DNA of 64,000 nt from Thiomicrospira sp. XS5 (lineage in GTDB: Bacteria > Pseudomonadota > Gammaproteobacteria > Thiomicrospirales > Thiomicrospiraceae), in assembly GCF_001507555.1 (NCBI RefSeq), contig NZ_LQBO01000001.1, positions 496,001 through 560,000 on the forward strand, written 5' to 3'. Below the pieces are notes generated by a model. It did not search any database. It had not been told where the DNA came from and worked only from the letters and a program-made list of their open reading frames with translations. Each line of letters opens with the position of its first letter. Within the stretch, counting starts at the first letter, position 1. Below, piece after piece: positions 1-63,645 of the stretch. The position numbers were made by a program, and so were the translations under genes.

Positions 1-1701
1 ACAGGAGACGTTTCCGACAACTACAGTGGTGGAGATGGTGTGATCACCATTGACAGTATTGAGGTTTATGGAACGACTTATACGGCCTCAAACTTCCCAT
101 CAGAAGGGGTGGATTTAGATGGTCAAGGCACTTTGCAATTCAACTTCACTACCGGTGAGTATAGCTACAGTGCAGCATCAAATGAATTTACGTCTGATGT
201 ATCGAAAGCCTTTAGTGTCACAGTGTCGGATGCAGATGGTGATGAAGCGTCGTTTGATGTCAATATAAATATCGAGGTGCAATCGTCAGAATCCTCTACT
301 ACAGAAGGTACTGTAGTGGATGGTATTGTTGATGGTTTAGGTTACGCCACTTCATCTGGTTTGACTGGCGTGACATCTGAATCAGGTGCCTTCAGTTATC
401 GTGAAGGGGATACAATCACCTTTATGGTGGGTGATGTGGTAATCGGTACTGCCGATGCTGCGGATCTAACGTCTGACCAAGTCTTCTTGCAAGATCTGGC
501 CGATGTGTCTCGTTCTGACTTGAACAACGAATATGTTGAAAACATGGCAGTCTTCCTGCAGTCATTGGATGCGGATGGAAATGCTGACAACGGTATTACT
601 ATTAAGCCAGCAGTATTTGCACAATTTGAAGGTGTTTCGCTAGACTTGAAAACAGCTTCTGAAGCTGAAGTAAAAGCCGTTATCGAAGAAGCCGGTCATC
701 ATTATGTGAATGAAGAAGAGGCCATGGCGCATGTACAAAGAATGCTGCAACAATACGGTGGTCAAACCGAGTTTGATGCGCATGTCGATGACTCCATTCA
801 AACCGCAACGCTGGCGCATGAAGTGTTGCAGAGTGACGGAATGCGTTTCGAAACCAGCTCCGGTTTGAGCGGCGAACTGGTGGATGGTGTCTTTGAATAC
901 GATCAGGGCGATACCATTAACCTCTATGTCGGCGAGACCCTAATGGCCAGCTTCAGCAGTGATGTGATCGATGCCAATGGCGTGATTACTTTCAGTGACG
1001 CTGGCTTTACGGTCACTGCTGACGAGCTCAGCGCTCTGCTGGCGCCGGAAGCTGCTGAACAGGAGGTTTCGATTGACGAGCGTGCCGACCAAGCCGAGGC
1101 GGATCTGAGTGTGGCGACTGTGGCCTCAACGGACGAACAGCCAGGCCTGGCCGAAACGGATATGGTTGAGGACTCCGTTGAAACCTCAGCGAATGCAGAG
1201 GGCACTGAGGCCGATGCTGGTTCAGCGACTGAAGATATGGCGGATGATGCCGTCTCCGAAGAACAACCAGGCCTGGCTGAAACCGATACTGAGACAGATG
1301 AGGTGGAAACGACGGCAGACGGCGGAACGGATATGGACGATGAAGCCATCGATGATTCGATTCTGTATGGATTTGATAGTGATGAAGCGGACACTTTGAT
1401 TGCTGATAGCCTTACGGATCAAGATAATGTTTATGAGCCAGCTTCTGGAAATAGCAATGAAACATTGGATTTGAGTGAGGTTATTAGTGAAGAACCTAAA
1501 GACTCAGATGCACTGAATGATTATTTGAGTATGATTGAAAAGGATGAAGTTTCTGACGGAAGCGAGGATTCCAAACCTGAGTCCGACCAGGCAGTTATTG
1601 AGAATACTCCAGTGCCAGTTGAGTTAGATACTCAGCTCCAGACAGCGGATGGGTTGGTTTCACAAATTGACGATAGCAATATAGATTATCAAAACGATTG
1701 A
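1..1701 (+). CDS. C-terminal part of a large secreted repeat (adhesin-like) protein, 5' truncated by window edge
   Basis: The frame is open from base 1, so the true start lies upstream; 566 residues are visible. The first ~90 residues look like a bacterial Ig/VCBS-type repeat of type I-secreted giant adhesins (FNFTTGEYSYSA followed by FSVTVSDADGDEASFDV). Two further modules carry the pattern 'SSGLxG...GxFxYxxGDTI..xVG' (about residues 108-205 and 292-345), a pattern I associate with surface lipoproteins and adhesins. The last ~200 residues are strongly acidic, low-complexity and rich in Asp, Glu, Ser and Thr, with a duplicated QPGLAET segment. No haemolysin-type nonapeptide repeats are visible in this part. 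A role in surface attachment or biofilm is inferred from architecture only. It is followed by a terminator and then by the pseudokinase gene. Confidence 0.7.
   Translation, partial: TGDVSDNYSGGDGVITIDSIEVYGTTYTASNFPSEGVDLDGQGTLQFNFTTGEYSYSAASNEFTSDVSKAFSVTVSDADGDEASFDVNINIEVQSSESSTTEGTVVDGIVDGLGYATSSGLTGVTSESGAFSYREGDTITFMVGDVVIGTADAADLTSDQVFLQDLADVSRSDLNNEYVENMAVFLQSLDADGNADNGITIKPAVFAQFEGVSLDLKTASEAEVKAVIEEAGHHYVNEEEAMAHVQRMLQQYGGQTEFDAHVDDSIQTATLAHEVLQSDGMRFETSSGLSGELVDGVFEYDQGDTINLYVGETLMASFSSDVIDANGVITFSDAGFTVTADELSALLAPEAAEQEVSIDERADQAEADLSVATVASTDEQPGLAETDMVEDSVETSANAEGTEADAGSATEDMADDAVSEEQPGLAETDTETDEVETTADGGTDMDDEAIDDSILYGFDSDEADTLIADSLTDQDNVYEPASGNSNETLDLSEVISEEPKDSDALNDYLSMIEKDEVSDGSEDSKPESDQAVIENTPVPVELDTQLQTADGLVSQIDDSNIDYQND
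1141..1150. repeat. CCAGGCCTGG palindrome copy
   Basis: Exact copy in the acidic tail of the adhesin-like gene, read as Pro-Gly-Leu within QPGLAE. Confidence 0.95.
1267..1276. repeat. CCAGGCCTGG palindrome copy
   Basis: Second exact copy in the same tail, 126 bp after the first and again within QPGLAET; the flanking codons are similar, which suggests a local duplication. Confidence 0.95.
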
Positions 1702-1718
1702 TGACGATTGTTTTATTT

Positions 1719-1746
1719 AAAAAAGGTACCAAAAGGTGCCTTTTTT
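1719..1746 (+). terminator. Rho-independent terminator behind the adhesin-like gene
   Basis: A-tract, arm GGTACC (1725-1730), loop AAAA, arm GGTGCC (1735-1740, one G-T pair), then six T. It lies 18 bp behind the stop codon. Confidence 0.75.
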
Positions 1747-1845
1747 ATTCCGTGCTCAAGAACTCGGGAAGTTGATAAAAGTTTAATTTACCCTTCTTTT
1801 TTTTGATAATATGATTTTTCATAAAACTGCGTAGGTTTGCTCGAT

Positions 1846-3219
1846 ATGTCTCAGACCCGGTCTGTCAAAAATCCGATTTATATTCAGGATGATTTATCGG
1901 ATATTAAATTGATTTGTGAAGAAGGTTCTTTGTCGGTTTTTTCGGCCAAACAAGTATCGGATGGCAAGGCCGGCAAGCAGACAGTGCGGGTTCTGACGGA
2001 TATCCACAACCATTACGCATTGAAGCGCGAAAAAGACCTGCTGCATTATCTCAATAAGTTTTCAGACGATTTTCCCAAGTTTAATGAAATCCGTAAAGAA
2101 GGTTTCAGTTACCTGAAATTTTTCGATTTCGTCGGTAAAAAAAGCTTAAAAGACGTTGTGAAGAAAAAAGGCGTTTTGTCTTCGGGAGAGGCCAAAACAC
2201 TGCTGGAACACATGGTGTCCGCATTGGATAAAGTGCATGGGGTTGGGTTTGTACATACGCGCATTCGCCCAGAGAATATCATTGCAGGCAAAAAGCATTA
2301 TTACCTGGTGGATTGGAGCGGCACCATACCGGCGCTGCCGTCATTTGAAACCGAAGTCTTACTGGGGGACCAGAAGTATTGCCCACCGGAACGCCTAAAC
2401 GGTGAATACGAAGCCTCTGGGGATATTTATCTCTTAGGCTGTGTCTTATATTTCGCGTTAACCGGCAAGCATATTTACCGTCTGAACAAAGTTGAGCACT
2501 CATTTGATCAGCTCTATGCCCACGCATTTCATACGCCGAGAAAACTGAATGTATTACCGGTTTTCTGGCGACAATTAATTGTATGGATGACGCAAAAATC
2601 GCCCAAAGATCGACCAGGCCTGGCCGATTTGCAGCAATGGTTAAAAGATGAAAGTGTGCCGAAAGAAATTCGTCAACAGAAACAGGAAACCGTTAAAGGC
2701 TTTCCGGAAGACAGTTTGACTGTATTGGCCGACTCACATTATCTCTATGCTTTGTTCAAAAAAGCGACGTTACACGATGCTTCCGGCGACGTCGAATCGG
2801 CCTTTAACCTCTATGAAACCTGCGCTTTCCGTGGCTATACCCGAGCCGAAAATAATCTCGGCCTGATGTATGAAAAAGGGAAGGTGGTGCGTCAGTCCTA
2901 CATCAAAGCCATGAATATGTTTTATCAGGCCTATGAAAAGGGCAATCCTTACGGCGCTTACAATCTGGGTTATATCTTTGAAAAAGGTTGGGGCGTTGAT
3001 GTGAATCTTTCAAAAGCCTACCAGCTTTATAAGTACGCCGCTATGCGCGGCCATCTCGCGGCGCAAAACCGGTTGGGTGAATGCTATTTGGACGGTAAAG
3101 GGGTGGAAGTCGATGTGGTTCAGGCTCGTTTCTGGCTCGGGATGGCCGCGCACTACGGCAATGAAATGGCGTCCCAAAACATCCGTCGATTGCTGACCGA
3201 AACCCGCCGCGCTGTTTGA
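1846..3219 (+). CDS. Protein kinase-like (probable pseudokinase) with C-terminal Sel1 repeats
   Basis: The first ~260 residues have the Hanks-kinase layout: an ALKR lysine near residue 60, a catalytic-loop equivalent HTRIRPENI near 137, VDWSG where DFG is expected, a CPPER equivalent of the APE motif and a conserved C-lobe (GDIYLLGCVLYFALTG). The proton-acceptor Asp of HRD is replaced (HTR), while the metal-binding Asn and the Asp of DFG remain, so catalysis is doubtful. After residue ~310, three to four Sel1/TPR-like repeats follow (NLGLMYEKG, NLGYIFEKGWGV, RLGECYLDGKGV), typical protein-interaction modules. I chose the ATG at 1846 over a TTG at 1837 because GTAGG lies about 10 bp before it. 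No transmembrane segment is seen. Its partner is unknown; the repeat protein upstream is a candidate by position only. Confidence 0.75.
   Translation: MSQTRSVKNPIYIQDDLSDIKLICEEGSLSVFSAKQVSDGKAGKQTVRVLTDIHNHYALKREKDLLHYLNKFSDDFPKFNEIRKEGFSYLKFFDFVGKKSLKDVVKKKGVLSSGEAKTLLEHMVSALDKVHGVGFVHTRIRPENIIAGKKHYYLVDWSGTIPALPSFETEVLLGDQKYCPPERLNGEYEASGDIYLLGCVLYFALTGKHIYRLNKVEHSFDQLYAHAFHTPRKLNVLPVFWRQLIVWMTQKSPKDRPGLADLQQWLKDESVPKEIRQQKQETVKGFPEDSLTVLADSHYLYALFKKATLHDASGDVESAFNLYETCAFRGYTRAENNLGLMYEKGKVVRQSYIKAMNMFYQAYEKGNPYGAYNLGYIFEKGWGVDVNLSKAYQLYKYAAMRGHLAAQNRLGECYLDGKGVEVDVVQARFWLGMAAHYGNEMASQNIRRLLTETRRAV
2614..2623. repeat. CCAGGCCTGG palindrome copy
   Basis: In the kinase-like gene, read as Arg-Pro-Gly-Leu-Ala at the end of the C-lobe, where kinases often have RPT or RPS. 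Confidence 0.95.
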
Positions 3220-4370: not shown

Positions 4371-4397
4371 AAAAACGCCCAGGCCTGGGCGTTTTTT
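4371..4397. terminator. Bidirectional terminator built on the CCAGGCCTGG palindrome
   Basis: 4371-4396 is a perfect palindrome: AAAAACGCCCAGG and its complement, centred at 4383/4384, with T-tracts in both directions. It serves the converging apt and argH. The iterated 10-mer sits at 4379-4388, exactly in the middle. Confidence 0.9.
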
Positions 4398-7677: not shown

Positions 7678-8464
7678 TGGGCTGACGTTACTCAATACCC
7701 GACCGGAACATCAGGCCGCGCACTTGACGCGTTTGGCCGAGAGCGTTGGGGCGACGGTACTGACGTGCCCAAGCATCGAAATTGAAACGTTATCTCTGCC
7801 CGCCGAGGCCGTTACACGTTTCCAGCGGTTTGATAAAATTGTGTTTGTCAGCCGCAATGCCGTCGCGGTTTTAAACGATTTATTTCAAGCGGTTGGTCAG
7901 GCGTCGCCGCCGTTTGGCGAATCGGCGCAGTGTTTCGCCATCGGTCAGGCCACACAGCAGGCGTTGCAGGCACAGGGTTGGCCATTGGCCGCTCTGGACA
8001 TCGACCGGTTTGTCAGTGAGGATTTGCTGGCGACCGAAGCGTTGCAAGATTTGCAGGGCCAACGGTGTCTTATCGTGAAAGGCGAAGGCGGCCGCCCGAC
8101 CTTGAAGGCCGGTTTGGAGAACGCCGGAGCGGATGTTGAAGAATGGTTGATTTATCGTCGTCGTCCGGCGGCATTGTGTGCCCAGGCCTGGTCAATATTT
8201 CAATCGGCCGCGCACCCGGTGGTGCTGGCCAGCAGTTTGCAGGCCTGGTCGAATTTAGTGGCGATGGTCACGGAAACCGATTCTCGGGAAACGCATCCGA
8301 AAAACGCTCAGGCCTGGTTGTTTTTACAAGATATTATTGTGTTCAGTGAGCGCATTGAAAACGCGATTCGTGAACAGGGTTGGCGGGGTCGAATTTTTGT
8401 GGTGCCCCAACAAAGTGATGACGGCGTACTGAGCGCGCTGAAACAGATCTCAATGCAGAGTTAA
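7664..8464 (+). CDS. hemD: Uroporphyrinogen-III synthase
   Basis: Cyclises hydroxymethylbilane with inversion of ring D. The family diverges strongly in sequence; the call rests on position between hemC and hemX, length (266 aa) and fold signatures: [18 protein letters not shown] at the N-terminus, [10 protein letters not shown], and the [12 protein letters not shown] segment. It starts inside the 3' end of hemC, so translation is probably coupled. Three iterated-palindrome copies or near copies cluster in its second half (8182, 8240, 8309), all read as Gln-Ala-Trp. Confidence 0.92.
8182..8191. repeat. CCAGGCCTGG palindrome copy
   Basis: In hemD, read as Ala-Gln-Ala-Trp-Ser. Near copies CAGGCCTGG follow at 8240-8248 (LQAWS) and 8309-8317 (AQAWL). 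Confidence 0.95.
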
Positions 8465-12496: not shown

Positions 12497-14815
12497 ATGG
12501 ATATGTTTTACGGCTATGCCCGGCTTTTTGTGGCGATTTTCATGGGGGCGGCCCTCGCGTCGGTCGTGCAGGCGGAGACTGTTCCGACAACCGAATTAAA
12601 GTCGTTGGTTGATTATGCCGATGTCAAACCGATTTTGGAAAAACGCTGTATTGTGTGCCATGGTTGTTACGACGCGCCTTGTCAGCTTAAATTGTCTTCT
12701 TATACGGGCACGGCCCGAGGTGCCAGCAAACAAAAAGTGTATGACGGCGAGCGCTTTTCTGCCGCGCCGCCCACCCGCTTGTTTATGGACGCGCAAACCA
12801 TTGAAGAATGGCGGGAGAAAGGTTTTTACTCGCTCATCACCGAGCAGAATGACGGCGAACCGTCCGTGCTCTATCGGATGTTGATGCTGAAAGAAGATCA
12901 CCCGCAACCGGTGAACGGTCGCTTGCCCAGTAATTATACGCTGGGGCTAAATCGTAAAGACGTCTGCCCGAAAGCCGATGAATTCGACGAATTTGCCATG
13001 AAACACCCTAACTGGGGCATGCCGTATGCCATGCCGAATTTGCCCAGAGACGAATACCTGACGTTACTGAACTGGGCGAAAGAAGGGGCGGCGGGCCATT
13101 TGGAGGATTTGGATGCGGTGACCTTATCGGAACAGGCCGCGTTTTACGAAAAATACCTTAATATTGATACCTTCAAACACCGTTTGATGGCGCGTTATGT
13201 CTATGAACACTTGTTTCTGGCACACATCCATTTTGCCGATAACTCCCCGCGTACTTTTTACCAGCTGGTACGGTCTAAAACTCCGCCGGGCCAGCCGATT
13301 GAGGTGATTCATACTACGCGGCCTTATGATGATCCGGGTGTGGATCGAGTGTATTACCGTTTGCGTGCGGTGAAATCGAGCATTGTCGATAAAGATCATT
13401 TGGTGTATTACGCCGATGCCAATACGTATAAAAAGTACCAGGCCTGGTTTATTTTCCCGGATTATCAAGTGATGAAACTGCCCGGTTACGACCCGAAAAC
13501 CTCAGCCAACCCGTTTAAAACGTTTGCGGCGATGCCGGCTTCCGGGCGATATCGTTTCCTGCTGGATCAAGCACAATTTATCATTGAAGGTTTTATTAAA
13601 GGACCGGTTTGTCGTGGCCAGGTCGCGCTGAACGTCATTGAAGAACAGTTTTGGGTGATGTTTTTCGACCCGGATGAAGATGTGGTCAGTAATGACACCG
13701 CTTTTTTAGCACAGCAGGCCAGTAATCTGGCCTTGCCGTCCGCCGAAGGGGTGGAAACCTTCCGGATGTTGGCCACCGCCACCACCTATCAGAACAAACA
13801 ACGTCTGTATCTGGACGCCAAACAAAAATTGCTGCACTCCAAAAAAGAACGCCAAGTGCGTCATGGGTTTGGGCGCATTTGGGACGGAGACCGCCATAAT
13901 CGTAACGCGGTATTAACGGTGTTTCGAAATCAGGATTCCGCCACGGTGCTTAAAGGGTTGCATGGTAAGATTCCGAAAACCGCTTGGGTGATTGATTACC
14001 CGTTGCTGGAACGTATCCAGTATTTGCTGGTGTCCGGTTTTGATGTCTACGGCAATGTCGGCCATCAGCTTAACACCCGACTTTACATGGACTTTTTGCG
14101 CATGGAAGGCGAGAACAATTTCCTCAGTTTTCTGCCAATTGATGCGCGGGAAAATTTGCGCCATTATTGGTATCGTAAAACCTCGGACGAAATGGTGCGC
14201 AGTGAGATTCCGTCGACGAAAACCACCATTCACTACCTGACGGATCATCCTAAAAAAGAATTTTTCCATCGATTGGTGCAACTGGAAGAGTTTCGAGATG
14301 TGCTTAACTCCGACCCGATTAACCGCCCACATTTACCGTTTAAAGACGGGGACCCGGATGCCCGTATCCAAAAATTCCTGCAACAACTGGCCGATTTGAA
14401 CGGTAAAAAAGTAGAAGGCTGGCCGGAAGTTTCTTTCTTGCGGGTGACGCGTTTTAACGATGAGGAGTCCTGGTACACGCTGTTTTTGAACCGTGGTTAT
14501 TACAATGTGACGTCATTGTTGTTTGATCAATACAATCGTGCGCCGAAAGAAAATACCGTTACGGTGGTCAAAGGATTGCAGACCAGCTACCCGGGGATGT
14601 TTTTCGAGGTGGATGAACAAGACGTCAATGTGTTCTTGGCGCTGGCCTCCCGCGTGAAAAATAAATCTGAGCTTCAGCGTTGGGTGAAGGCTTATGGCGT
14701 GCGTCGAACCGATCCGGCGTTCTGGGATTTTTCCGATGATTTGTTATTTTATCAGCAGAAAGTGGAACCGGTGACCTGGGGTATTTTCGATTTGAATCGT
14801 TATTTGAATGACTGA
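12497..14815 (+). CDS. cti: Fatty acid cis/trans isomerase (cytochrome c type)
   Basis: Periplasmic haem protein that converts cis- to trans-unsaturated membrane fatty acids under solvent, heat or osmotic stress. A signal peptide (MDMFYGYARLFVAIFMGAAL, cleaved near VQAE) precedes CIVCHGC, the CxxCH haem-attachment site about 35 residues into the mature protein. The remaining ~700 residues match the family in length (772 aa) and in motifs such as LPRDEYLTLLNWAKEGA. I prefer the ATG at 12497 to the GTG at 12461 because it starts the signal peptide directly. It is divergent from the GGDEF-like gene (about 130 bp). Confidence 0.93.
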   Translation: MDMFYGYARLFVAIFMGAALASVVQAETVPTTELKSLVDYADVKPILEKRCIVCHGCYDAPCQLKLSSYTGTARGASKQKVYDGERFSAAPPTRLFMDAQTIEEWREKGFYSLITEQNDGEPSVLYRMLMLKEDHPQPVNGRLPSNYTLGLNRKDVCPKADEFDEFAMKHPNWGMPYAMPNLPRDEYLTLLNWAKEGAAGHLEDLDAVTLSEQAAFYEKYLNIDTFKHRLMARYVYEHLFLAHIHFADNSPRTFYQLVRSKTPPGQPIEVIHTTRPYDDPGVDRVYYRLRAVKSSIVDKDHLVYYADANTYKKYQAWFIFPDYQVMKLPGYDPKTSANPFKTFAAMPASGRYRFLLDQAQFIIEGFIKGPVCRGQVALNVIEEQFWVMFFDPDEDVVSNDTAFLAQQASNLALPSAEGVETFRMLATATTYQNKQRLYLDAKQKLLHSKKERQVRHGFGRIWDGDRHNRNAVLTVFRNQDSATVLKGLHGKIPKTAWVIDYPLLERIQYLLVSGFDVYGNVGHQLNTRLYMDFLRMEGENNFLSFLPIDARENLRHYWYRKTSDEMVRSEIPSTKTTIHYLTDHPKKEFFHRLVQLEEFRDVLNSDPINRPHLPFKDGDPDARIQKFLQQLADLNGKKVEGWPEVSFLRVTRFNDEESWYTLFLNRGYYNVTSLLFDQYNRAPKENTVTVVKGLQTSYPGMFFEVDEQDVNVFLALASRVKNKSELQRWVKAYGVRRTDPAFWDFSDDLLFYQQKVEPVTWGIFDLNRYLND
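13438..13447. repeat. CCAGGCCTGG palindrome copy
   Basis: In cti, read as Tyr-Gln-Ala-Trp-Phe. Confidence 0.95.
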
Positions 14816-16672: not shown

Positions 16673-17812
<1,140 letters not shown>

Positions 17813-17825
17813 GATGCCATCCTCA

Positions 17826-19922
17826 TTAGTCGTTGGCTTGTGCCTGAATCGCGGTAATGGCGACGGTGTTGACGATGTCGGCTACCTTGCATCCGCGGCT
17901 TAAATCGTTGACCGGTTTGCGTAATCCTTGCAGTACCGGGCCGATGGCAATGGCACCGGAAGCACGTTGCACGGCTTTATAAGTGTTGTTGCCGGTGTTG
18001 AGGTCGGGGAAGATGAACACCGTGGCTTGTCCGGCCACGTCGCTGTCGGGCATTTTCTGCCGAGCGACGGTTGGGTCAATGGCGGCGTCGTATTGCAAAG
18101 GCCCTTCCAGCAGCAGGTCTGGCCGTTTTTGGTGTGCCAGTTGGGCAGCCTGTCGAACCTTTTCGACCTCGGAACCGTGGCCGGATTCCCCGGTGGAATA
18201 GGATAACAGCGCCACTTTCGGGTCGATGCCGAAATGCCGTGCGGTTTCGGCCGAGCTGATGGCGATTTCCGCCAGTTGCTCGGCTGTCGGGTTTTGGTTG
18301 ACGGCGCAGTCACCGTAGACCAGCACACGGGTGTCGAAACACATGAAAAATACGCTGGAGACCAGCGAGGTGTCCGGCTGGGTTTTGATGATTTGCAGGG
18401 CGGGGCGCACCGTGTCCGCCGTGGTATGGGTGGCGCCGGAGACCATGCCGTCGGCATAGCCGAGATGCACCATCATGGTGGCGAAATAACTGACATGAGA
18501 CAGAGAGTCGCGGGCGAGGTCCAGCGTCATGCCTTTGTGTTGACGCATTTCAAAAAACGTTTGAATGAATTCTTCCTGCCACGGGCTGGTTTCCGGGTCG
18601 ATGATTTGCGCGCCGTCCAAGTTCAAACCGAGTAAATTGGCTTGATAGAGCACTTCGTCCGGATGGCCGAGCAGAATCGGGTTAACGACCTTGCGCTGTA
18701 ACAGCACGTCGCAGGCGCGCAGAATGCGTTCGTCCGACGCTTCGGGTAACACGATGGTTTTGAGGCGCTGACGCGCTGTTTCGAACAGGCGGTATTCGAA
18801 CATGATGGGAGTGGTGATGTCGCGGCTGTGGTCGCTGGCGCGTTGCAGGATGCGTTCCATCAGACCGTCGCGGTCGACATGACGGTCGAACAACCCGAGC
18901 GCTAAATGGGTTTTGCGGCTGTTGTTGGCGTTGAGTTTGGCGCGTACGCGGCCGACGTCCATCGCCGACGGATAGGTGTCGGTCTGAACGGAGATAATGG
19001 GCAGGTCACGTCCTTCGAAATTGATGATTAGGTCCTGAATCACCGGCTTGGGCACCAGTCCGCCGGTGAGCAGGATGCCGGCGATATTGGGCATGTTGCG
19101 CGCAAACAGGCTCATGACGGACGCGATGAGAATGTCGCTGCGATCGCCGGGCACCACAATCAAATCACCTTCATTGACGCGCGGCAGATAGTTCTCGATG
19201 GTCATGGCCGCGACGATGGGCGCTTTTACCAAGCGGTTCCAGCCTTGTTTTTTTGGCGTCAGAAATTCGCCGTGTAGGGTGTCGGCGACTTCTTTGATGG
19301 TCGGGGTGTTGAGGTCGTCCAGTTCCGGCAGGTAAAACACCGGCAGGCCTGGGTGTTTTCGGAAGTCTTCACTGTCGTCGTGTAAAGCCGGTGCCATGCG
19401 GTTGACGAAAAACGCAAACGGGTCATGGTCGGCACTGGCGTGCAACTCCATCTCGATTTCGGTTTCGATCTCGGAGCGGGTTTTGTCCTGTCCGTTCAGC
19501 ACCGGCACGTAAGGGCTGTTGAAGTGTTTCGCCAGCGCCAGGTTGATGTCGAACTCGATGCCGCTGGCGTGGCGGGTCATTTCCATGCCGTGCACCAGCA
19601 CAAAATCGTATTCCTGTTGCAGGGTCTGGTATTGCGCCACCAATTGTTCGAAGAGTTCGTGCTTATGGCCGTCGCTGAGTTTCTGGGTCGCTTCCGCCAA
19701 GGTGAGGCCGGTCATTTGCGCCATCGGAATGTCAAGCTGGAAGAAGTCGTGGATAAAGCGACTGTCCGGGTCGTCGGCATCGGTGACTAGTGGGCGGAAA
19801 AAGGCGATTTTTTCAAACCGCTGTCGCAGCAACGACATCAAACCGAGCGAGACCAGCAAACTGCCGGCGTGGCGTTCACGGGGGGCAATGAAGAGACTGT
19901 TGGGTTCCATCACAGTGACCAT
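17826..19922 (-). CDS. pta: Phosphate acetyltransferase (long form)
   Basis: Acetyl-CoA plus phosphate to acetyl phosphate plus CoA. 698 residues with the long Pta architecture: an N-terminal P-loop-like/BioD-related part, a central DRTGG-type domain (VVPGDRSDILIASVMSLF) and the C-terminal catalytic PTA_PTB domain (VLPEASDERILRA, SGATHTTADTVRPALQIIKT, FPDLNTGNNTYKAVQR). First gene of pta-ackA. It is divergent from hemW, with 63 bp between the starts. A near copy of the palindrome (CAGGCCTGG, 19344-19352) is read as His-Pro-Gly-Leu-Pro. Confidence 0.96.
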   Translation of the reverse strand: MVTVMEPNSLFIAPRERHAGSLLVSLGLMSLLRQRFEKIAFFRPLVTDADDPDSRFIHDFFQLDIPMAQMTGLTLAEATQKLSDGHKHELFEQLVAQYQTLQQEYDFVLVHGMEMTRHASGIEFDINLALAKHFNSPYVPVLNGQDKTRSEIETEIEMELHASADHDPFAFFVNRMAPALHDDSEDFRKHPGLPVFYLPELDDLNTPTIKEVADTLHGEFLTPKKQGWNRLVKAPIVAAMTIENYLPRVNEGDLIVVPGDRSDILIASVMSLFARNMPNIAGILLTGGLVPKPVIQDLIINFEGRDLPIISVQTDTYPSAMDVGRVRAKLNANNSRKTHLALGLFDRHVDRDGLMERILQRASDHSRDITTPIMFEYRLFETARQRLKTIVLPEASDERILRACDVLLQRKVVNPILLGHPDEVLYQANLLGLNLDGAQIIDPETSPWQEEFIQTFFEMRQHKGMTLDLARDSLSHVSYFATMMVHLGYADGMVSGATHTTADTVRPALQIIKTQPDTSLVSSVFFMCFDTRVLVYGDCAVNQNPTAEQLAEIAISSAETARHFGIDPKVALLSYSTGESGHGSEVEKVRQAAQLAHQKRPDLLLEGPLQYDAAIDPTVARQKMPDSDVAGQATVFIFPDLNTGNNTYKAVQRASGAIAIGPVLQGLRKPVNDLSRGCKVADIVNTVAITAIQAQAND

Positions 19923-23476: not shown

Positions 23477-23504
23477 AAAAAGCCACCAGGCCTGGTGGTT
23501 TTTG
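23477..23504. terminator. Bidirectional terminator built on the CCAGGCCTGG palindrome
   Basis: Perfect 16-bp palindrome CCACCAGGCCTGGTGG (23483-23498) flanked by an A-tract on the left and a T-tract on the right, between the converging asmA-like and trmB genes. The 10-mer is at 23486-23495. Confidence 0.9.
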
Positions 23505-44206: not shown

Positions 44207-45402
44207 AGTCGCGTGTGACGGATGTGCTGGTGGTGGGCGCCGGCGCGGCCGGTTTAATGTGCGCGGCCACGGCCGGTTATCGTGGCCGTCAGGTTGAGGT
44301 GTTGGACCATGCACCGAAAGCGGCTGCCAAAATTCGTATTTCCGGCGGCGGAAAATGCAACTTTACCAATCTGACCGTTCGTCCGGACCATTATCTGTGC
44401 GGGAATTCGCATTTCGTTAAAAGCGCTCTGGCGCGTTATCAACCGCAGGATTTCATCGACTTGGTCGACCGTCACGGCTTGGCGTATGAAACGCGCGAGT
44501 TGGGCAAACTCTTCTGTCAAAATCGCGCAGGCGACTTAATTCAAATTTTGCGAACCGAGTGTGATTGGGCCGGTGTTGAGTTTCACTTGAATACGCGAGT
44601 TGAACGCGTTGAAGCCTTGGATGAGTCGCATCAGCCATTGCGATTTCGTGTCGTCACGAACCATGAAGTCATCGAGTGTGAATCGCTGGTGGTGGCGACG
44701 GGCGGTTTGTCGTTTCCGAAGTTAAAAGCCAGCGGGTTCGGTTATCATTTGGCGGAACAATTCGGGTTGGCGGTGACCGAAAAACGTCCAGGCCTGGTGC
44801 CTTTGGTGTTTGACGGCAAGCTGCGCGATTTTTGCGCCGCCATGGCCGGAGTATCGCTGGATGTGACCATCCGCAACCAAGACGACACACAATCCTTCTC
44901 GGAGGCCTTATTGTTTACCCATCAAGGCATCAGCGGTCCGGGTGTTTTGCAGATTTCCAATTACTGGCGGCCGGGCGAGGCGATCCGGGTGAACCTGTTG
45001 CCCGGTACGGATGTCGCCGAGGCCTTGTTGCAATTGAAACGTGACAATGCGGGGCTGAAAAAATGGTTAAACGGTTTCTGGCCTAAGAAATTCACCCAGG
45101 CCTGGTTGGAAAAATACCCTTTGCCCGAACCGCTGGCGGAACTGCCTGATGAACGCCTGCGGGAGTATGCCGAACAGCTCACCGCTTGGACGCTTTACCC
45201 GTCGGACACCGCCGGTTACGATAAGGCGGAAGTCACATTAGGCGGCATCGACACGGATGCGATTTCCTCGAAAACGCTGGAAGTCAAAACCACGCCAGGG
45301 CTGTATTTTATCGGTGAGGTGTTGGACGTGACCGGTCAATTAGGCGGGTACAATTTCCAGTGGGCTTGGGCGTCCGGCTTCGCCGCCGGGCAATCGGTTT
45401 GA
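44203..45402 (+). CDS. HI0933/YhiN-family FAD-dependent oxidoreductase
   Basis: 399 residues. N-terminal dinucleotide motif VLVVGAGAAGLMCAATAGYRG, then KIRISGGGKCNFTN and GELGKLFCQ-like segments, and the C-terminal FIGEVLDVTGQLGGYNFQWAWASGFAAG that defines the HI0933 (BaiN/YhiN) family. The substrate in most bacteria is unknown. The start may be TTG 44203, overlapping the previous stop, or GTG 44215 (MTDVLVVGAG). It contains two exact palindrome copies. Confidence 0.88.
   Translation: MKSRVTDVLVVGAGAAGLMCAATAGYRGRQVEVLDHAPKAAAKIRISGGGKCNFTNLTVRPDHYLCGNSHFVKSALARYQPQDFIDLVDRHGLAYETRELGKLFCQNRAGDLIQILRTECDWAGVEFHLNTRVERVEALDESHQPLRFRVVTNHEVIECESLVVATGGLSFPKLKASGFGYHLAEQFGLAVTEKRPGLVPLVFDGKLRDFCAAMAGVSLDVTIRNQDDTQSFSEALLFTHQGISGPGVLQISNYWRPGEAIRVNLLPGTDVAEALLQLKRDNAGLKKWLNGFWPKKFTQAWLEKYPLPEPLAELPDERLREYAEQLTAWTLYPSDTAGYDKAEVTLGGIDTDAISSKTLEVKTTPGLYFIGEVLDVTGQLGGYNFQWAWASGFAAGQSV
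44788..44797. repeat. CCAGGCCTGG palindrome copy
   Basis: In the HI0933-type gene, read as Arg-Pro-Gly-Leu-Val. Confidence 0.95.
45096..45105. repeat. CCAGGCCTGG palindrome copy
   Basis: In the same gene 308 bp further on, read as Thr-Gln-Ala-Trp-Leu: one gene uses both permitted frames. Confidence 0.95.
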
Positions 45403-47655: not shown

Positions 47656-47683
47656 AAAAAACCACCAGGCCTGGTGGTTTTTT
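47656..47683. terminator. Terminator built on the CCAGGCCTGG palindrome
   Basis: Perfect 28-bp palindrome centred at 47669/47670: A6-CCACCAGG and its complement ending in T6. It lies 21 bp behind the Prx-Grx stop and before gorA, so gorA is likely to have its own promoter or depend on read-through. The 10-mer is at 47665-47674. Confidence 0.9.
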
Positions 47684-49306: not shown

Positions 49307-50281
49307 ATGTCGACGTCTTCATCCACCTGGGAAACCCAGTGCCCGGTCATCCAGCACACCACCCATCCGCATGACTTCGGTCAGGGGCAATTGCAGCGGG
49401 CCGAAAAACGTGCTTGGAGCGTCGCCTTTTTGACCTTGGTGGTGATGGTGGCGGAAGTCGTGGCGGGTTTGCTGACCGGGTCCATGGCGCTGTTGGCGGA
49501 CGGCATTCACATGGGTGGGCACGCCATTGCATTGGGTTTGGCCGCCGGGGCCTATTTTTTGGCGCGGCGCTATGCGCAAGACCGGCGATTGAGTTTCGGC
49601 AGCGGCAAAATCAAAGACTTGGCGGCTTACACCAGTGCACTGCTGTTGGGGGTATCGTCGATTTGGCTGGTGGTGGAATCGGTGCATCGACTGTTGGCTC
49701 CAGAACCGCTTTATGCGTTTGAAGCCATGGTGGTTGCGATTATCGGTTTAGTGGTCAATGTGGCATCGATTTTCATGCTGTCCGGCGCGCATGAGCATCA
49801 TCACGACCACGGTCATGAACACCACCATCACCATGAAACCGATAATAATATCAAAGCGGCATTATTTCATGTCATGGCCGATGCGGTCACTTCGGTGGCC
49901 GCCATCGCCGGTTTAGCGGCGGCTTGGTTGTGGGGTTGGCAGTGGTTGGATCCGGCCATTGCGTTGTTGGCGGCGGTGTTGATTGTGCGTTGGTCGTGGG
50001 GCTTGCTGAAAAACACCGGCGCGATTTTATTGGACGCCGAAGCGCCGGCGGAATTACGGGAGCGTATCCGTCAGCGCCTGGAATCCCTGCCGGAAACCAA
50101 AGTGCTGGATCTGCACCTGTGGTCGGTCGGCCAGGGAGCCTGGACACTGGTGGCGTCGGTGGTCAGCCATCAGGATGCTTCCCCCAACCAATACAAAGCG
50201 GCTTTGGCGGATATGGACGGTTTGCATCATCCGATTATCGAAGTGCATCTATGTCATTGCTGTGAAGAAAGCCAGGCCTGA
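49307..50281 (+). CDS. Cation diffusion facilitator, DmeF-like
   Basis: 324 residues, six transmembrane helices, with metal-site motifs ALLADGIHMGGHAIAL (helix II) and HVMADAVTSVAAI (helix V) and a His-rich loop between helices IV and V (HEHHHDHGHEHHHHHE). This is the pattern of DmeF, a Co/Ni exporter group within the CDF family; the ion is inferred from the family. The ATG at 49307 follows GAGG at six bases. The final Cys-His-Cys-Cys tail may bind metal too. A one-base variant of the palindrome (CCAGGCCTGA) overlaps the stop codon. Confidence 0.85.
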   Translation: MSTSSSTWETQCPVIQHTTHPHDFGQGQLQRAEKRAWSVAFLTLVVMVAEVVAGLLTGSMALLADGIHMGGHAIALGLAAGAYFLARRYAQDRRLSFGSGKIKDLAAYTSALLLGVSSIWLVVESVHRLLAPEPLYAFEAMVVAIIGLVVNVASIFMLSGAHEHHHDHGHEHHHHHETDNNIKAALFHVMADAVTSVAAIAGLAAAWLWGWQWLDPAIALLAAVLIVRWSWGLLKNTGAILLDAEAPAELRERIRQRLESLPETKVLDLHLWSVGQGAWTLVASVVSHQDASPNQYKAALADMDGLHHPIIEVHLCHCCEESQA

Positions 50282-51297: not shown

Positions 51298-51307
51298 CCA
51301 GGCCTGG
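51298..51307. repeat. CCAGGCCTGG palindrome copy (non-coding)
   Basis: It directly adjoins the stop codon of the HAD gene (minus strand) with no flanking A/T tract, so here it is not a terminator. Confidence 0.95.
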
Positions 51308-52327: not shown

Positions 52328-53509
52328 ATGCGTCACTCGACTGTCTTGGCCGACAAGGAAGTTCGTGCTGGTACTTTGGTTTCCGGCCGCTTAGGAAAAG
52401 CGGCGGATTTTCTCGAATCTCAACTGGCGAAAGCCGGTCTCACTGTGAACGGTTCCAACCCTTGGGACCCGCAAATCCATAATGCCCAAACCTACTGGCG
52501 GGTGTTGCGCGACGGGACGCTCGGTGCCGGGGAAAGCTACATGGATCACTGGTGGGACTGTGAGCAACTGGACGAAATGATTACCCGCGCCATGACCGCC
52601 AAGCTGGACGAATCCTTGACCGGGCGCTGGGTGTTTATCAAGCATTGGTTGATGGCGCGTTTGACGAATATGCAATCGGAAAAGCGCGCCTATCAAGTCG
52701 GTGAGCAACATTATGATGTCGGCAATGACCTCTACGAAGCCATGCTGGACCCGACCATGGCCTATTCCTGCGGTTATTGGAAAAATGCCGACAGCCTGCA
52801 CCAAGCCCAAGAAGCCAAGTTGGATTTAATTTGCCAGAAATTGGAGCTGCAACCCAATGAAACGGTGCTCGACATCGGGTGCGGCTGGGGCAGTTTCGCC
52901 GAATTGGCGGCGCGCAAATACGGGGTGCATGTCACCGGTTTGACCATTTCGCGTGAGCAGCAACAGCTGGCCGAACAACGCTGCAAAGACTTGCCAGTGC
53001 AAATCGAACTCAAAGATTACCGTAAAATGGAAGGCACGTTCGACAAGCTGGTGTCCATCGGCATGTTCGAGCACGTCGGGCAGAAGAATTACGATACTTA
53101 CATGCGTACCGCTTACGACCTGATGAAAGAGGACGGGATTTTCGTACTGCACACCATCGGTAGCGATAAGTCGTTTTACGTCACCAATCCGTGGATTCAC
53201 AAATACATTTTCCCGAACGGTTCTATTCCGTCGTTGGCGCAAATCAATCAGGCGGCGGAACCCTATTTTGTGGTGGAAGATGTCCACAATTTCGGGCCGG
53301 ATTACGACCGCACCTTGATGGCGTGGCAACGCAATTTCGACCAGGCCTGGCCGGATTTGCAAGACCGTTACGACAGCCGTTTTTATCGGATGTGGAATTA
53401 TTACCTGAAAATTTCCGCCGGGGCTTTCCGAAGCCGCTCCTTACAACTCTATCAAGTGGTGCTGCGAAAACGTCTGACGCCGTTGGACCCGTACCACAGC
53501 AAACGTTGA
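52328..53509 (+). CDS. cfa: Cyclopropane-fatty-acyl-phospholipid synthase
   Basis: Adds a SAM methylene to cis-unsaturated acyl chains in membrane phospholipids. SAM motif VLDIGCGWGSFAELAARKYG, then LTISREQQ and MFEHVGQKNYDTYM, with the active-site residue pattern of the family. 393 aa is normal. AGGAGGC lies before the ATG. The 250 bp upstream are AT-rich and non-coding. It converges on thiD with a gap of 7 bp. Confidence 0.96.
   Translation: MRHSTVLADKEVRAGTLVSGRLGKAADFLESQLAKAGLTVNGSNPWDPQIHNAQTYWRVLRDGTLGAGESYMDHWWDCEQLDEMITRAMTAKLDESLTGRWVFIKHWLMARLTNMQSEKRAYQVGEQHYDVGNDLYEAMLDPTMAYSCGYWKNADSLHQAQEAKLDLICQKLELQPNETVLDIGCGWGSFAELAARKYGVHVTGLTISREQQQLAEQRCKDLPVQIELKDYRKMEGTFDKLVSIGMFEHVGQKNYDTYMRTAYDLMKEDGIFVLHTIGSDKSFYVTNPWIHKYIFPNGSIPSLAQINQAAEPYFVVEDVHNFGPDYDRTLMAWQRNFDQAWPDLQDRYDSRFYRMWNYYLKISAGAFRSRSLQLYQVVLRKRLTPLDPYHSKR
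53341..53350. repeat. CCAGGCCTGG palindrome copy
   Basis: In cfa, read as Asp-Gln-Ala-Trp-Pro. Confidence 0.95.
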
Positions 53510-54384: not shown

Positions 54385-55059
54385 TCATCGAAAGGGTTTC
54401 TCGTCATTGGGCGTTTTTGACCAGGCCTGGTAGTTTTCGGCAAACCGGGTTTGCAGGGTGTGGAGGTGCTCGGCGCCGTCGGCTTGATGCAATTGTAACC
54501 CTTGAATCATCGCCACGCCATTGGCACCGGCTCGCACCACGGCGCCCAGTTGTTCCAATCCAATGCCGCCGATGGCGACCACCGGCATTGGCAGCGAACG
54601 GCTCCAATGGCTTAGGTTGTCGAGTCCGACCGCCGGGTAGTCGAGTTGTTTGCTTTGGGTGCCGAAAATCGGGCCGATGGCGAGATACGACGGTTGCAAG
54701 GGCAAGGCGTTTTCGATTTCCGACGGATTATGGGTGCTCACGCCAAGCCGTAAACCGGCTTGAAACAGGGCTTGGGCATCGGCGGTGTGCAAATCTTCCT
54801 GGCCGAGATGCACGCCGTAAGCGCCGAGTTCGATGGCGATTTGCCAGTAATCGTTAATGAACAGACGGGCCTTGTGGGTTTTCGCCAAGCGCACGGTGGC
54901 GGCGAGTTCTTGGCGCAACGCCTCGCCCTGTAAATCCTTAATGCGGATTTGCAGGGTAGTGATACCGTTTTGGAACAACAAAGCGGCGTCTTCGGCGCGA
55001 TTGACCAAAGGGTAAAGCCCCAGAGGTTGTTCGGGCGTTTGGCAAGAAGGAAACTGCAT
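54385..55059 (-). CDS. thiE: Thiamine-phosphate synthase
   Basis: Joins HMP-PP and thiazole phosphate to thiamine monophosphate. TIM barrel: LYPLVNRAEDAALLFQNG, QIRIKDLQGEALRQEL, FINDYWQIAIELGAYGVHLGQEDL, RLGVSTHNPSEIENA, YLAIGPIFGT and VVAIGGIGLEQLGAVVRAGANGVAMIQGL. The ATG at 55059 matches the length of the E. coli N-terminus; a GTG at 55080 is an alternative. The stretch just before the ATG contains a variant of the palindrome (GCAGGCCTGG in minus sense), and an exact copy lies at 54421. Confidence 0.95.
   Translation of the reverse strand: MQFPSCQTPEQPLGLYPLVNRAEDAALLFQNGITTLQIRIKDLQGEALRQELAATVRLAKTHKARLFINDYWQIAIELGAYGVHLGQEDLHTADAQALFQAGLRLGVSTHNPSEIENALPLQPSYLAIGPIFGTQSKQLDYPAVGLDNLSHWSRSLPMPVVAIGGIGLEQLGAVVRAGANGVAMIQGLQLHQADGAEHLHTLQTRFAENYQAWSKTPNDEKPFR
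54421..54430. repeat. CCAGGCCTGG palindrome copy
   Basis: Near the end of thiE (minus strand), read as Tyr-Gln-Ala-Trp-Ser. Confidence 0.95.
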
Positions 55060-55091
55060 TTTGACCAGGCCTGCTTTCACTTAGAACGAGA

Positions 55092-56175: not shown

Positions 56176-57258
56176 TTAAGCCGTATCGGCGGTGGCAAAA
56201 CCGCTTTCCATCAATGCCTGTTCCACCACCGCGGGCGTCAGGAGATAACCGTGACGATACAGGCCGTTGATTCGAGTGACTTGTGGCTCATGACGAATCG
56301 ACGGTAGGTTATCGTCCAATGCCGGGCGGCAGTTGGTCAGGCTGTTGACGATGCGTGCTTCGCCGAAACCGGGGTGCAAACTGTAGGCCGCCGACAGCAG
56401 TTCTAAACTGGAACGTACCGACATGGGGCTCATGTCCTCGCTTTCGATTTCGGTGGCGCCGATGACGTAACGGTGCGGCGTATCGGCGGACGGGCGCGGT
56501 ACGATGTAAATGCGGTAACGCGGGTGCATCAAACGCACCGGTCGGGTCAGTTTGACATCGGGGGCGTCCAACCAGAAGACTTCGCCGCGTACGCCGCGCA
56601 AGTCGGTGACCTCTTTTTTGGCACCGAGCCCTCGGGTGTCGAAGGCCCAATCGAATGTGAAGGGATTCGAACCGACGTGAATGCATCCGTCTTTCAGGTC
56701 AGTGACTTCGGCGCGGGTGTGCCAAATGACCTCCGGGTGTTCGCGCAGATAGCTTCGGCTTCGATCCATAAAGCGTTGGGCATTGACCTGGCCTTCGCTC
56801 GGCAGGAAAAAGCCACGCGCATGATGGCTTAAATCCGGTTCCAGTTGCTGAAGGGCATTTGGGGCCAGCGCTTGAATCGATTCGGCCGCATCGGGCGATT
56901 TGGCTTTGGCGCGTAGTTGCGCCATAAACCGTTCCAATTCCGCCATGTCCGCCGGGTGAGCGGTGATGACACTACCGGCTTGTTGCAGGGCGTCGGGAAT
57001 GCCGAGTTGCTCCAGCAGGCCTGGCCAAATTTGGATGGAACGCTGTCCGAGATCGAAAATATCCGATTCGGCGGTTTCCAGTTCCGCAAATGGCGCCAAC
57101 ATGCCGGCGGCCACTCGTGCGGCGGCGTTTTCCGATTCATCGGAATCCTTTTCGAACAAGGTCACATGATGCCCTTGCGCCAACAGTTTCAGCGCCAGCA
57201 CCCGGCCGACGAGGCCGGCCCCGGCGATGCCGAGGTGTTGCTTGGTGACGTGTTTCAT
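56176..57258 (-). CDS. thiO: Glycine oxidase
   Basis: FAD-dependent oxidase that turns glycine to iminoglycine for the thiazole ring, the route of bacteria that use ThiO rather than ThiH. FAD motif LGIAGAGLVGRVLALKLLAQG, then RVAAGMLAPFAELE, and the C-terminal RIVNSLTNCRPALDDNLP and GLYRHGYLLTPA. 360 aa. GAGG lies before the ATG. No thiH is seen in the operon. Confidence 0.93.
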   Translation of the reverse strand: MKHVTKQHLGIAGAGLVGRVLALKLLAQGHHVTLFEKDSDESENAAARVAAGMLAPFAELETAESDIFDLGQRSIQIWPGLLEQLGIPDALQQAGSVITAHPADMAELERFMAQLRAKAKSPDAAESIQALAPNALQQLEPDLSHHARGFFLPSEGQVNAQRFMDRSRSYLREHPEVIWHTRAEVTDLKDGCIHVGSNPFTFDWAFDTRGLGAKKEVTDLRGVRGEVFWLDAPDVKLTRPVRLMHPRYRIYIVPRPSADTPHRYVIGATEIESEDMSPMSVRSSLELLSAAYSLHPGFGEARIVNSLTNCRPALDDNLPSIRHEPQVTRINGLYRHGYLLTPAVVEQALMESGFATADTA

Positions 57259-57270: not shown

Positions 57271-59410
<2,140 letters not shown>

Positions 59411-60158: not shown

Positions 60159-60186
60159 AAAAATACCCAGGCCTGGGTATTTTTTA
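60159..60186. terminator. Terminator built on the CCAGGCCTGG palindrome
   Basis: 60159-60184 is a perfect palindrome, AAAAATACCCAGG and its complement, with T-tract continuing to 60185. It lies 15 bp behind the CopD-like gene. The 10-mer is at 60167-60176. Confidence 0.9.
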
Positions 60187-62795: not shown

Positions 62796-62805
62796 GCGTT
62801 CATGA

Positions 62806-63645
62806 TTAAGCGCTCATTAAACGTCGCACTTCGTCGATGACGCTCGCGGTTTCCGGGCGGACGCCGCGCCACAGATAAAAGGCTTCGGCCGCCTGGCCGA
62901 CCAGCATCCCCAGTCCGTCTCGTGTCCTGCATTCCGGTTGCAAGCCTTTCGCCCAATCCATAAAGACGGTCGGTTCCGTGCCGTACATCATGTCGTACAC
63001 CAAACTGTCTGCCCCAACGACGTCTCCGCTTACCGGCGGCAACTTGCCTTCCAAACTGGCCGAGGTGCCGTTGATGATGATATCGTAGCCGCCGGGTGGG
63101 CAGGGAATGTCTTCCCAGCCGCTGGCGGTGATCGGAATGTCGGTGTCAAAACGCTGTCCCAGAACTTCGGCGCGTTTGGCGGTGCGATTGGCAATATGCA
63201 CCAGGCCTGGCCGTTTTTCTAGAATGGGTTGCAGTACGCCTTGCACGGCGCCGCCGGCGCCGAGAATCAAAACCTGTTTGCCTTCAAACGGGCAAGCGGC
63301 ATTGATTTCAATGTCCATCACCAGGCCGACGCCGTCGGTGTTGTCGCCGAAGGTTTTACCGTCCTGAAATTGAAAGGTGTTGACCGCATGCGCGACCTGA
63401 GCGCGTTCCGTCAGTTCGTCGGCGTATTCGAAAGCATCCAGTTTATAAGGGACGGTGATATTAATCCCTTTATACCCTTGCGCTTTTAAATCCGCCATGG
63501 CCCACTGGAAGGTGGTGTCTTCGGTGTCGACGCGAATGGCTTCGTACACCAGGTCCTGATGGGTTTGTTCGGCAAACAGCCGGTGAATCAATGGGGATTT
63601 GGAGTGGGCGATGGGGTCGCCCACCACGGCGTAATAATCGGTCAT
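62806..63645 (-). CDS. aroE: Shikimate dehydrogenase
   Basis: NADPH-dependent reduction of 3-dehydroshikimate to shikimate. Shikimate site PIAHSKSPLIHRLFAEQ, catalytic Lys and Asp in NITVPYKLDAFEYAD, NADP motif LGAGGAVQGVL, the NRTAKRAE loop and DNTDGVGLVMDIE. 279 aa. It lies 22 bp downstream of hemB on the same strand. The stop is 10 bp from the converging GGDEF-EAL gene. Confidence 0.96.
   Translation of the reverse strand: MTDYYAVVGDPIAHSKSPLIHRLFAEQTHQDLVYEAIRVDTEDTTFQWAMADLKAQGYKGINITVPYKLDAFEYADELTERAQVAHAVNTFQFQDGKTFGDNTDGVGLVMDIEINAACPFEGKQVLILGAGGAVQGVLQPILEKRPGLVHIANRTAKRAEVLGQRFDTDIPITASGWEDIPCPPGGYDIIINGTSASLEGKLPPVSGDVVGADSLVYDMMYGTEPTVFMDWAKGLQPECRTRDGLGMLVGQAAEAFYLWRGVRPETASVIDEVRRLMSA
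63201..63210. repeat. CCAGGCCTGG palindrome copy
   Basis: In aroE (minus strand), read as Arg-Pro-Gly-Leu-Val. Confidence 0.95.

Follow-up and report, generated by a model that had tools for sequence, protein, structure and literature searches.

A palindromic element repeated across Thiomicrospiraceae genomes resembles a DNA uptake sequence and occurs in distinct dialects

Results

The palindrome and its positions in one genomic window

A 64,000-nucleotide stretch of the Thiomicrospira sp. XS5 genome (contig NZ_LQBO01000001.1, positions 496,001 to 560,000; hereafter the window, in whose numbering positions are given) contains 21 exact copies of the 10-bp palindrome CCAGGCCTGG, each at the start reported by the first-pass annotation. 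We analyzed these copies in the window, in its own genome (G000; 2,632,826 bases in 23 contigs) and in further genomes of the family (other G numbers), and we regard the palindrome as the probable core of a DNA uptake sequence of the Thiomicrospiraceae (Hydrogenovibrio, Thiomicrorhabdus and their kin). In a search among named genomes, the nearest relatives by UvrD were Hydrogenovibrio, Thiomicrorhabdus and a metagenome-assembled genome labeled "Piscirickettsiaceae", with 75-80% identity.

Several genic copies are read as Pro-Gly-Leu plus one residue. PGLA is encoded at 1141..1150 and 1267..1276 in the coding sequence (CDS) 40-1701 (+), and at 2614..2623 in CDS 1837-3219 (+), where G001 and G010 have a site of the asymmetric dialect described below. 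PGLV is encoded at 17449..17458 in the acetate kinase gene (16673-17812, -), at 44788..44797 in an HI0933-like gene (44203-45402, +; site also present in G003) and at 63201..63210 in the shikimate dehydrogenase gene (62806-63645, -). The copy at 54421..54430 in the phosphomethylpyrimidine kinase gene (53517-54443, -) is read as TRPG. The other genic copies encode Gln-Ala-Trp (QAW) after one variable residue: AQAW at 8182..8191 in CDS 7664-8464 (+), whose product resembles uroporphyrinogen-III synthase below the curated cut-off; YQAW at 13438..13447 in a fatty acid cis/trans isomerase gene (12461-14815, +); DQAW at 20663..20672 in a radical-SAM/HemN_C gene (19869-21161, +); CQAW at 24985..24994 in an HhH-GPD and NUDIX gene (24344-25420, +; also at this place in G002 and G009); GQAW at 34741..34750 (also in G002) and DQAW at 34882..34891 (also in G005, G006 and G009), both in an ABC-ATPase gene (34550-35197, +); GQAW at 37103..37112 in a gene with DAO and Methyltransf_30 domains (35796-37787, +); TQAW at 45096..45105 in the HI0933-like gene (also in G003, G005, G006, G007 and G009); and DQAW at 53341..53350 in a CMAS-family gene (52328-53509, +).

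Five copies are intergenic. Those at 4379..4388 (GAAAAACGC-core-GCGTTTTTT), 47665..47674 (AAAAAACCA-core-TGGTTTTTT) and 60167..60176 (AAAAATAC-core-GTATTTTTT) are terminator-like, as is the hairpin at 23486..23495, and the copy at 51298..51307 abuts the 3' end of an open reading frame (51308-52075, -). The gap around 47665 has asymmetric sites in G001 and G010 and a palindromic one in G005.

Single-base variants of the core were nearly absent from the window, with only the outermost base being loose (CCAGGCCTGC, 6 places). The first-pass annotation had also listed eight near copies. Five of them (8240, 8309, 19344, 32923 and 57016) match at 9 of 10 positions, and the other three (27140, 34100 and 43561) turned out to be merely one-sided occurrences of AGGCCTGG. 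The five correspond, on the plus strand, to GCAGGCCTGG at 8239..8248, 19343..19352, 32922..32931 and 57015..57024, and to TCAGGCCTGG with A and T tracts at 8308..8317. The copy at 32922 lies in uvrD, where G002, G003, G005, G006, G007 and G009 also have a site. Three further 9/10 copies had been overlooked, all on the plus strand: CCAGGCCTGC at 20753..20762, CCAGGCCTGA at 50272..50281 and CCAGGCCTGC at 55065..55074, the last in a short gap that in G001 and G010 holds two asymmetric sites.

Abundance of the palindrome

Dinucleotide shuffling of the window gave an expectation of 0.02 copies against the 21 found, and G000 as a whole has 677 copies, with zero for the reversed control. When trained on the window, Markov models predicted 0.14, 0.4, 2.0, 10.3 and 18.6 copies at orders 2, 4, 5, 6 and 7. 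In 464 kb of G000, 118 copies were observed against 0.83, 2.0, 14.5, 56.5 and 108.8 at the same orders. Orders 6 and 7, which had been proposed for this check, train on the 7- and 8-mers of the motif itself, so that the motif is absorbed into its own expectation; the excess claimed earlier is borne out at order 4.

Spacing of the first 100 sites was slightly more even than random (coefficient of variation 0.85 versus 0.99; 5% of simulations were as low or lower). Twenty 20-kb stretches held 1-10 copies each, with a variance-to-mean ratio of 0.85 and no clustering.

The palindrome is the core of a longer symmetric element

The first-pass annotation had seen no longer consensus around the palindrome. 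Alignment of the 118 sites corrected this: symmetric flanks make CCAGGCCTGG the core of an element of about 26 bp, approximately AAAAW-C-S-A-CCAGG/CCTGG-T-S-G-WTTTT, where the slash marks the dyad. Outward from the core, the flanks have A at -1, C or G at -2, C or T at -3, A or T at -4 and -5, and mostly A at -6 and -7. A weak A/T step follows at -13 and -14, about 18 bp from the dyad, and information ends about 14 bp on either side of the core. The A-tract is centered about 10 bp from the dyad, which corresponds to one helical turn. Coding sites keep the tract, with A/T frequencies at -5 of 0.93 in coding and 0.98 in non-coding sites by the first of our two gene callings. The element thus has the anatomy of a two-fold site.

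We then examined the independence of the two halves. Among 233 CAGGCCTG places in 610 kb of G000, both, one or none of the outer bases were present in 158, 70 and 5 cases, against expectations of 160, 66 and 7, so that the outer bases of the two halves behave independently. Of the 158 full sites, 128 carry A/T tracts on both sides (at least 3 of 4 bases A/T). Under strict scoring, with A on the left and T on the right, 61 sites had both tracts, 56 had one and 41 had none.

A two-fold site whose A/T tracts lie roughly one turn from its dyad is also what would be expected of a cytoplasmic chromosome-organizing or nucleoid protein (like those binding matS or parS, or SlmA and Noc) that contacts the A-tracts as a dimer and shifted its specificity between species. 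The spread of the sites over the sampled stretches, slightly more even than random, points the same way. Chromosome-organizing systems have regionally biased sites that number from tens to roughly a hundred, unlike the 677 sites and 1-10 per 20 kb seen here. We return to this alternative with the dialects.

Copies at gene ends and inside genes

Gene positions were assessed by a first calling and by a revised calling with looser overlap, the latter covering 610 kb and 158 sites of G000. The first calling filed at least the site at 20663 wrongly as intergenic, and the statistics on non-coding placement still rest on it. By this calling, non-coding sites were densest in convergent gaps (2.12/kb), followed by tandem (0.68/kb) and divergent (0.32/kb) gaps. 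Thirty-six of 48 fell in the interval from 20 bp ahead of the upstream stop codon to 60 bp beyond it, and TTTT lay within 20 nt of 42 of 55. Additional perfect arms of at least 4 bp were present at 17 of 55 non-coding sites versus 1 of 69 coding sites. Judged by these features, the intergenic copies look like terminators.

This placement in convergent gaps, at stop codons and beside TTTT would also suit an element whose chief role is intrinsic termination in both directions, a cassette that selection on transcript ends has spread. The revised calling, however, placed 92 of the 158 sites wholly within genes (0.176/kb in CDS and 0.75/kb in non-coding DNA). Since coding sites keep the A-tracts, and extra perfect arms are almost confined to non-coding sites, we consider a terminator cassette extremely unlikely as the main explanation.

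The genic copies leave a mark on proteins. Coding frames contained 95 copies, compared with a mean of 6.28 (maximum 12 in 50 trials) when synonymous codons were redrawn, a 15-fold excess; the count of 95 probably exceeds 92 because overlapping gene calls register some sites twice. The frames read Gln-Ala-Trp 49 times, Pro-Gly-Leu 31 times and Arg-Pro-Gly 12 times. QAW occurred 70 times, whereas composition predicts 10.4 and dipeptide frequencies 16.8 occurrences; its z-score was the highest among tripeptides seen at least 10 times. PGL occurred 84 times (51.3 and 58.7 expected, respectively) and RPG 34 times (23.6 and 24.1). QAW was also raised in other palindromic-dialect sets (16 versus 1.9 in G066 and G033; 6 versus 0.8 in G009), and was not raised in the asymmetric-dialect genomes G001, G010 and G004 (8 versus 7.5), in G031 (0 versus 1.1) or in the motif-poor G018 (1 versus 1.2). 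Among the genomes examined, the QAW excess is therefore confined to those of the palindromic dialect.

The first-pass annotation had allowed that a codon or protein preference for Gln-Ala-Trp and Pro-Gly-Leu might account for the copies; the synonymous redraws rule out an origin of this kind. Its statement that the palindrome is not a transposon relic holds, given that nothing is shared beyond about 14 bp from the core and that so many sites lie inside genes. A test for repeats of the repetitive extragenic palindromic (REP) or transposon type likewise showed no longer shared repeat and no confinement to intergenic DNA. Sites recur at the same orthologous places across species despite differing surroundings. 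We found no point in favor of chance, codon or protein preference, or a transposon relic, and the probability left to them is virtually negligible.

Distribution over the family and dialects

We compared 58 genomes of the family, drawn from a larger group. Counts of CCAGGCCTGG were bimodal: 26 genomes had 234-856 copies and 32 had 0-37. The motif-rich genomes comprise 7 of 11 in genus g1 (Hydrogenovibrio, the genus of the window), all 9 in g6 (which we take to be Thiomicrospira), the single one in g4 and 9 in g3 (Thiomicrorhabdus). Among 21 genomes of the same class outside the family, the highest count was 35, and 10 for the reversed control. Intermediate counts were seen in G021 (37), G056 (24), G025 (27) and G074 (15); these genomes may use a sub-dialect that differs in the outer base, or may be in the course of losing the code. 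G025 favors ACAGGCCTGY. Flanks also vary among species sharing the core, with GCACCAGG in G026 and TACCAGG in G033.

Other dialects emerged when words were counted in stretches of motif-poor genomes. Three Hydrogenovibrio genomes, G001, G004 and G010, carry the non-palindromic element AAAATCTGCCAGGYTGGG. Its left half follows the palindromic plan in A-tract, spacing and CCAGG, and its right half is TTGGG or CTGGG and has no right A-tract. The part CTRCCAGGYTGGG occurs 376, 314 and 331 times in G001, G004 and G010, and 0 or 1 times in the other 55 genomes. In the Thiomicrorhabdus genome G031, ACCGGCCGGT occurs 1,025 times, against 0-15 times in the other 57. The dialects are mutually exclusive between genomes. 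No comparable word was found by the word search in 20-78 kb each of the motif-poor genomes G008, G012, G016, G018, G058 and G064.

The search also returned words of other kinds. In 17.5 kb of Thiomicrorhabdus sp. Milos-T2 (L032), AGGCTAAAGC occurs 11 times, together with GGCTAAAGCC (9 times), and CCAGGCCTGG itself 5 times. In G001 (L072, L092 and L093), AGGGGTAAGG and GCCTTACCCC overlap within a single sequence that is distinct from the asymmetric dialect, and each occurs 6 times in 60 kb against 0.03-0.04 expected.

The dialects bear on three alternatives. An asymmetric element with a single A-tract fits a dimer site poorly, and a chromosome-organizing protein supplies no ready reason for the enrichment at 3' ends or the mark on proteins; we judge this explanation improbable, although it is the main rival of an uptake sequence. 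A recombination hotspot of the Chi type could also exist in hundreds of copies, and recombination could yield gains of the site, yet a palindrome has no direction. Copies of the asymmetric dialect are divided about equally between strands (CTRCCAGGYTGGG 181/195 in G001, 136/178 in G004 and 149/182 in G010). The initial 1.03 Mb of the 2.45-Mb G004 genome holds 68 of its 136 forward copies, and the initial 1.08 Mb of the 2.49-Mb G010 genome holds 68 of 149. Strand balance and position are both weak tests, because the replication origin was not located. A Chi-type role is very unlikely indeed.

The third alternative is a methylation target, as in the highly iterated palindrome HIP1 of cyanobacteria, the first-pass annotation having noted that CCAGGCCTGG consists of two CCWGG sites with an AGGCCT center. 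An orphan methyltransferase acting on CCWGG, GGCC or AGGCCT could maintain its high frequency, for instance by directed mismatch repair, and such palindromes are tied to methyltransferases in the excerpted text of PMC4390886. A search for C5 methyltransferases, which did not extend to N4 and N6 enzymes, gave no match in G000 and 18 of the 26 motif-rich genomes. We rejected a C5 enzyme as the cause, as its presence does not follow the motif. Outside the element, the sub-sites occur near expectation (CCAGG 0.90, AGGCCT 1.21, GGCC 0.79), and methylation accounts neither for the A-tracts beside the core nor for the asymmetric and ACCGGCCGGT dialects. The proposal is weakened accordingly, to the point of being very unlikely.

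Replacement of dialects in place

We next compared the positions of sites between dialects. The site at 37103 is palindromic in G000, G003, G005, G006, G007 and G009, and at the same codon G001, G004 and G010 have CCAACCTGGCAGATTTT or CCAGCCTGGCAGATTTT. At 23486, G000 and G009 have a single palindromic hairpin, where G001, G004 and G010 have two asymmetric sites in inverted orientation.

Stretches of G001, G010 and G004 contained 87 asymmetric sites, at least 17 of them on stretches unmatched to the G000 sample, which were skipped before mapped sites were counted. Of the remaining 70, 29 could not be mapped, 22 mapped in genes and 19 in gaps. Half of the genic ones (11/22) lay within 12 bp of a G000 site, representing seven distinct G000 positions because the three genomes are related. 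Controls from the same genomes were near G000 sites far less often: 4/163 for non-motif CCAGG, 14/1,380 for CAGG, 2/598 for ATGGC and about 0.6% for random positions. Of the 19 asymmetric sites in gaps, 14 had a G000 site in the same gap, pairs entering this count twice; the null expectation was 14-19%. For comparison within the palindromic dialect, mapped coding sites in common with G000 numbered 6/8 (G009) and 8/8 (G007 and G003). The 11/22 against 4/163 in the CCAGG control indicates that dialects changed in place.

G002, a very close relative (UvrD 99% identical), has no site at 37103 (CCGGGCCTGG, L073), although more remote relatives do; thus, single sites turn over.

Uptake machinery and a candidate receptor

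ComEC was found in 54 of the 58 genomes, including all 26 motif-rich ones as well as G001, G004, G010 and G031. Dedicated uptake receptor pilins are ComP and, as predicted in Pasteurellaceae, ComN/PpdA. A GspH/FimT-family pilin was detected in 3 of the 58 genomes (G012, G018 and G071), all motif-poor. The PilY1 profile was silent in all genomes and in the controls alike, and is uninformative.

Twelve genomes were searched for prepilin signals. All had the large minor pilins B and C and a pilin of about 190 residues, D. Pilin D adjoins a miaB-like gene (UPF0004, Radical_SAM and TRAM domains in G000) and a gene named phoH solely from its likeness; in G026, D is set apart from these genes. Among three palindromic Hydrogenovibrio species, D shares 59-64% identity, compared with 39-44% between palindromic and asymmetric ones. 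The same comparison for MiaB gave 83-90% within the palindromic species and 83-89% between dialects. Across six Hydrogenovibrio genomes, the ratio of between- to within-dialect distance was 1.77 for D versus 0.92 for MiaB, 1.26 for PhoH, 1.28 for A, 1.27 for B and 1.09 for C. Gene B of G004 (no clean frame) and MiaB and PhoH of G026 were omitted from the pilin comparisons, and the ratio excludes gene A of G004, whose frame appeared incorrect. The predicted model of D has a mean predicted local distance difference test score (pLDDT) of 81, and its best fold matches are type IVb pilins, at weak significance (best E 1.5e-3, none at or below 0.001); these matches do not bear on DNA binding. We tentatively propose pilin D as the specificity receptor.

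A pseudopilin cluster (G000:C1:830398-832488), which by gene size and order looks like the type II secretion set GspG-K, was rejected as the receptor; no such cluster was listed for G001, G004, G010 or G026. The pilin cluster of G000 contains a response regulator with a Fis-type helix-turn-helix and a histidine kinase. Genes of similar size stand at that position in G009, G025, G031, G033, G061 and G018, and none in G001, G004, G010 or G007. The length of pilin C varies: some species have an extended, repeat-rich tail, and G000, G001, G004 and G010 have a short form (264-271 amino acids).

Apart from these elements, the window contains an ordinary thiamine pyrophosphate riboswitch at 59398-59528 (-; Rfam RF00059, 71.7 bits) upstream of thiC (57271-59250, -).

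Discussion

Of the parallels raised by the first-pass annotation, that with DNA uptake sequences survives best, as judged from copy number, dialects, terminator positions and in-place conversion. In its sequence behavior, the element is like an uptake sequence, and we infer that DNA uptake is the selecting process. The fuller proposal, that this is a third and independently evolved family of uptake sequences whose palindrome is read as two half-sites, with receptor and sites having switched dialect in some lineages, we hold to have about an even chance of being right.

In the mechanism that we envisage, a two-fold symmetric surface receptor, or two receptor subunits, would read each CCAGG half-site with its A-tract. 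DNA bearing the element would be favored by the receptor, taken up and recombined into the chromosome; consequently, copies would be gained and kept wherever the change is tolerated. Non-coding copies may be re-used as terminators, and coding copies would bend the protein sequence. When receptor specificity shifts, sites would be rewritten in place to the new dialect, for example from the palindrome to the one-sided AAAATCTGCCAGGYTGGG. The changed receptor, perhaps the type IVb-like pilin beside miaB, would then read one half-site and a new half.

Among the species tested, the consulted passages of PMC7811141 describe a strong uptake sequence preference for Pasteurellaceae and Neisseriaceae only, both of which live mainly on mucosa. 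A k-mer survey of terminators, in its excerpted text, likewise reports uptake signals in those two families (PMC13020248). Neisseriaceae have eight dialects of the DNA uptake sequence (DUS) with a common CTG core and ComP as the receptor, according to the accessible parts of PMC3630211. As with the DUS in that account, a short signal is over-represented in a whole family, has species-confined dialects and also occurs inside genes. The placement near stop codons and in convergent gaps recalls the terminator positions of known uptake signals (sections of PMC13020248). By contrast, the DUS shares its CTG core and is non-palindromic (PMC3630211, in the same parts), whereas the main form of the Thiomicrospiraceae element is palindromic. 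Copies are also fewer here than the 1,892 in N. meningitidis (PMC7811141) or the 5,918 in K. oralis (PMC3630211) mentioned in those texts.

Uptake has been demonstrated for the DUS, whereas for the Thiomicrospiraceae element it is proposed from sequence. In the uptake signal sequence (USS) of Pasteurellaceae, two AT tracts lie to the same side of the core, unlike AAAATCTGCCAGGYTGGG with its one upstream A-tract. The element otherwise resembles the USS in combining a core with A/T tracts, in its hundreds to thousands of copies and in its presence in terminators (PMC7811141 and PMC12616744, in part), and Pasteurellaceae have two dialects, as stated in the available text of PMC12616744. It differs in that the USS is non-palindromic (PMC12616744) and its core sequence unrelated. 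HIP1 (GCGATCGC) of cyanobacteria is likewise a highly iterated palindrome across a clade, but it has been linked to orphan methyltransferases, and all described cases share a single sequence (PMC4390886). The element studied here has dialects, A-tract flanks and no consistent C5 methyltransferase.

Several observations weigh against an uptake sequence. The uptake sequences described in the consulted parts of PMC1939737 and, for the USS, PMC12616744 are not palindromes. Within a site, the A tract and the T tract tend to vary together (r 0.29), which means that the flanks fall short of fully independent half-sites. ComEC also occurs in most motif-poor genomes; it is needed for uptake and is not diagnostic of it. 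The ComP_DUS profile had no match above its cut-off in any of the 58 genomes (0/58). Outside Hydrogenovibrio, pilin D does not follow dialect: D of G033 and G061 is 52% identical despite their common dialect, and that of the motif-poor G018 is 54% identical to that of G033. Regarding in-place replacement, the co-located sites of G001, G004 and G010 partly reflect the same ancestral events, and conserved residues may anchor some of the co-location, as at 37103, where sequences without the site (G013, L033 and L079) retain the Trp codon. For the ACCGGCCGGT dialect of G031, compared with G033 and G061, there was no in-place match (0/3 mapped sites, with 33/36 unmapped), and this dialect is thus linked to the others by plan and number only. 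Among the literature matches listed, none reported uptake or transformation in Thiomicrospiraceae, nor such a sequence in the family, most subscription journals lying outside the search.

If the proposal holds, a third family of uptake sequences, in free-living sulfur oxidizers, would mean that such codes arise repeatedly and are not restricted to host-associated bacteria. The palindrome and its one-sided derivative raise the structural question of whether a pilus receptor binds as a dimer or a monomer. In-place conversion at mapped codons, readable as an excess of Gln-Ala-Trp, would make a change of uptake code directly testable, and related isolates exist on both sides of the dialect switch. 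The element may help to transform chemolithoautotrophs, and the family would hold a natural record of self-recognition DNA codes switching and isolating species.

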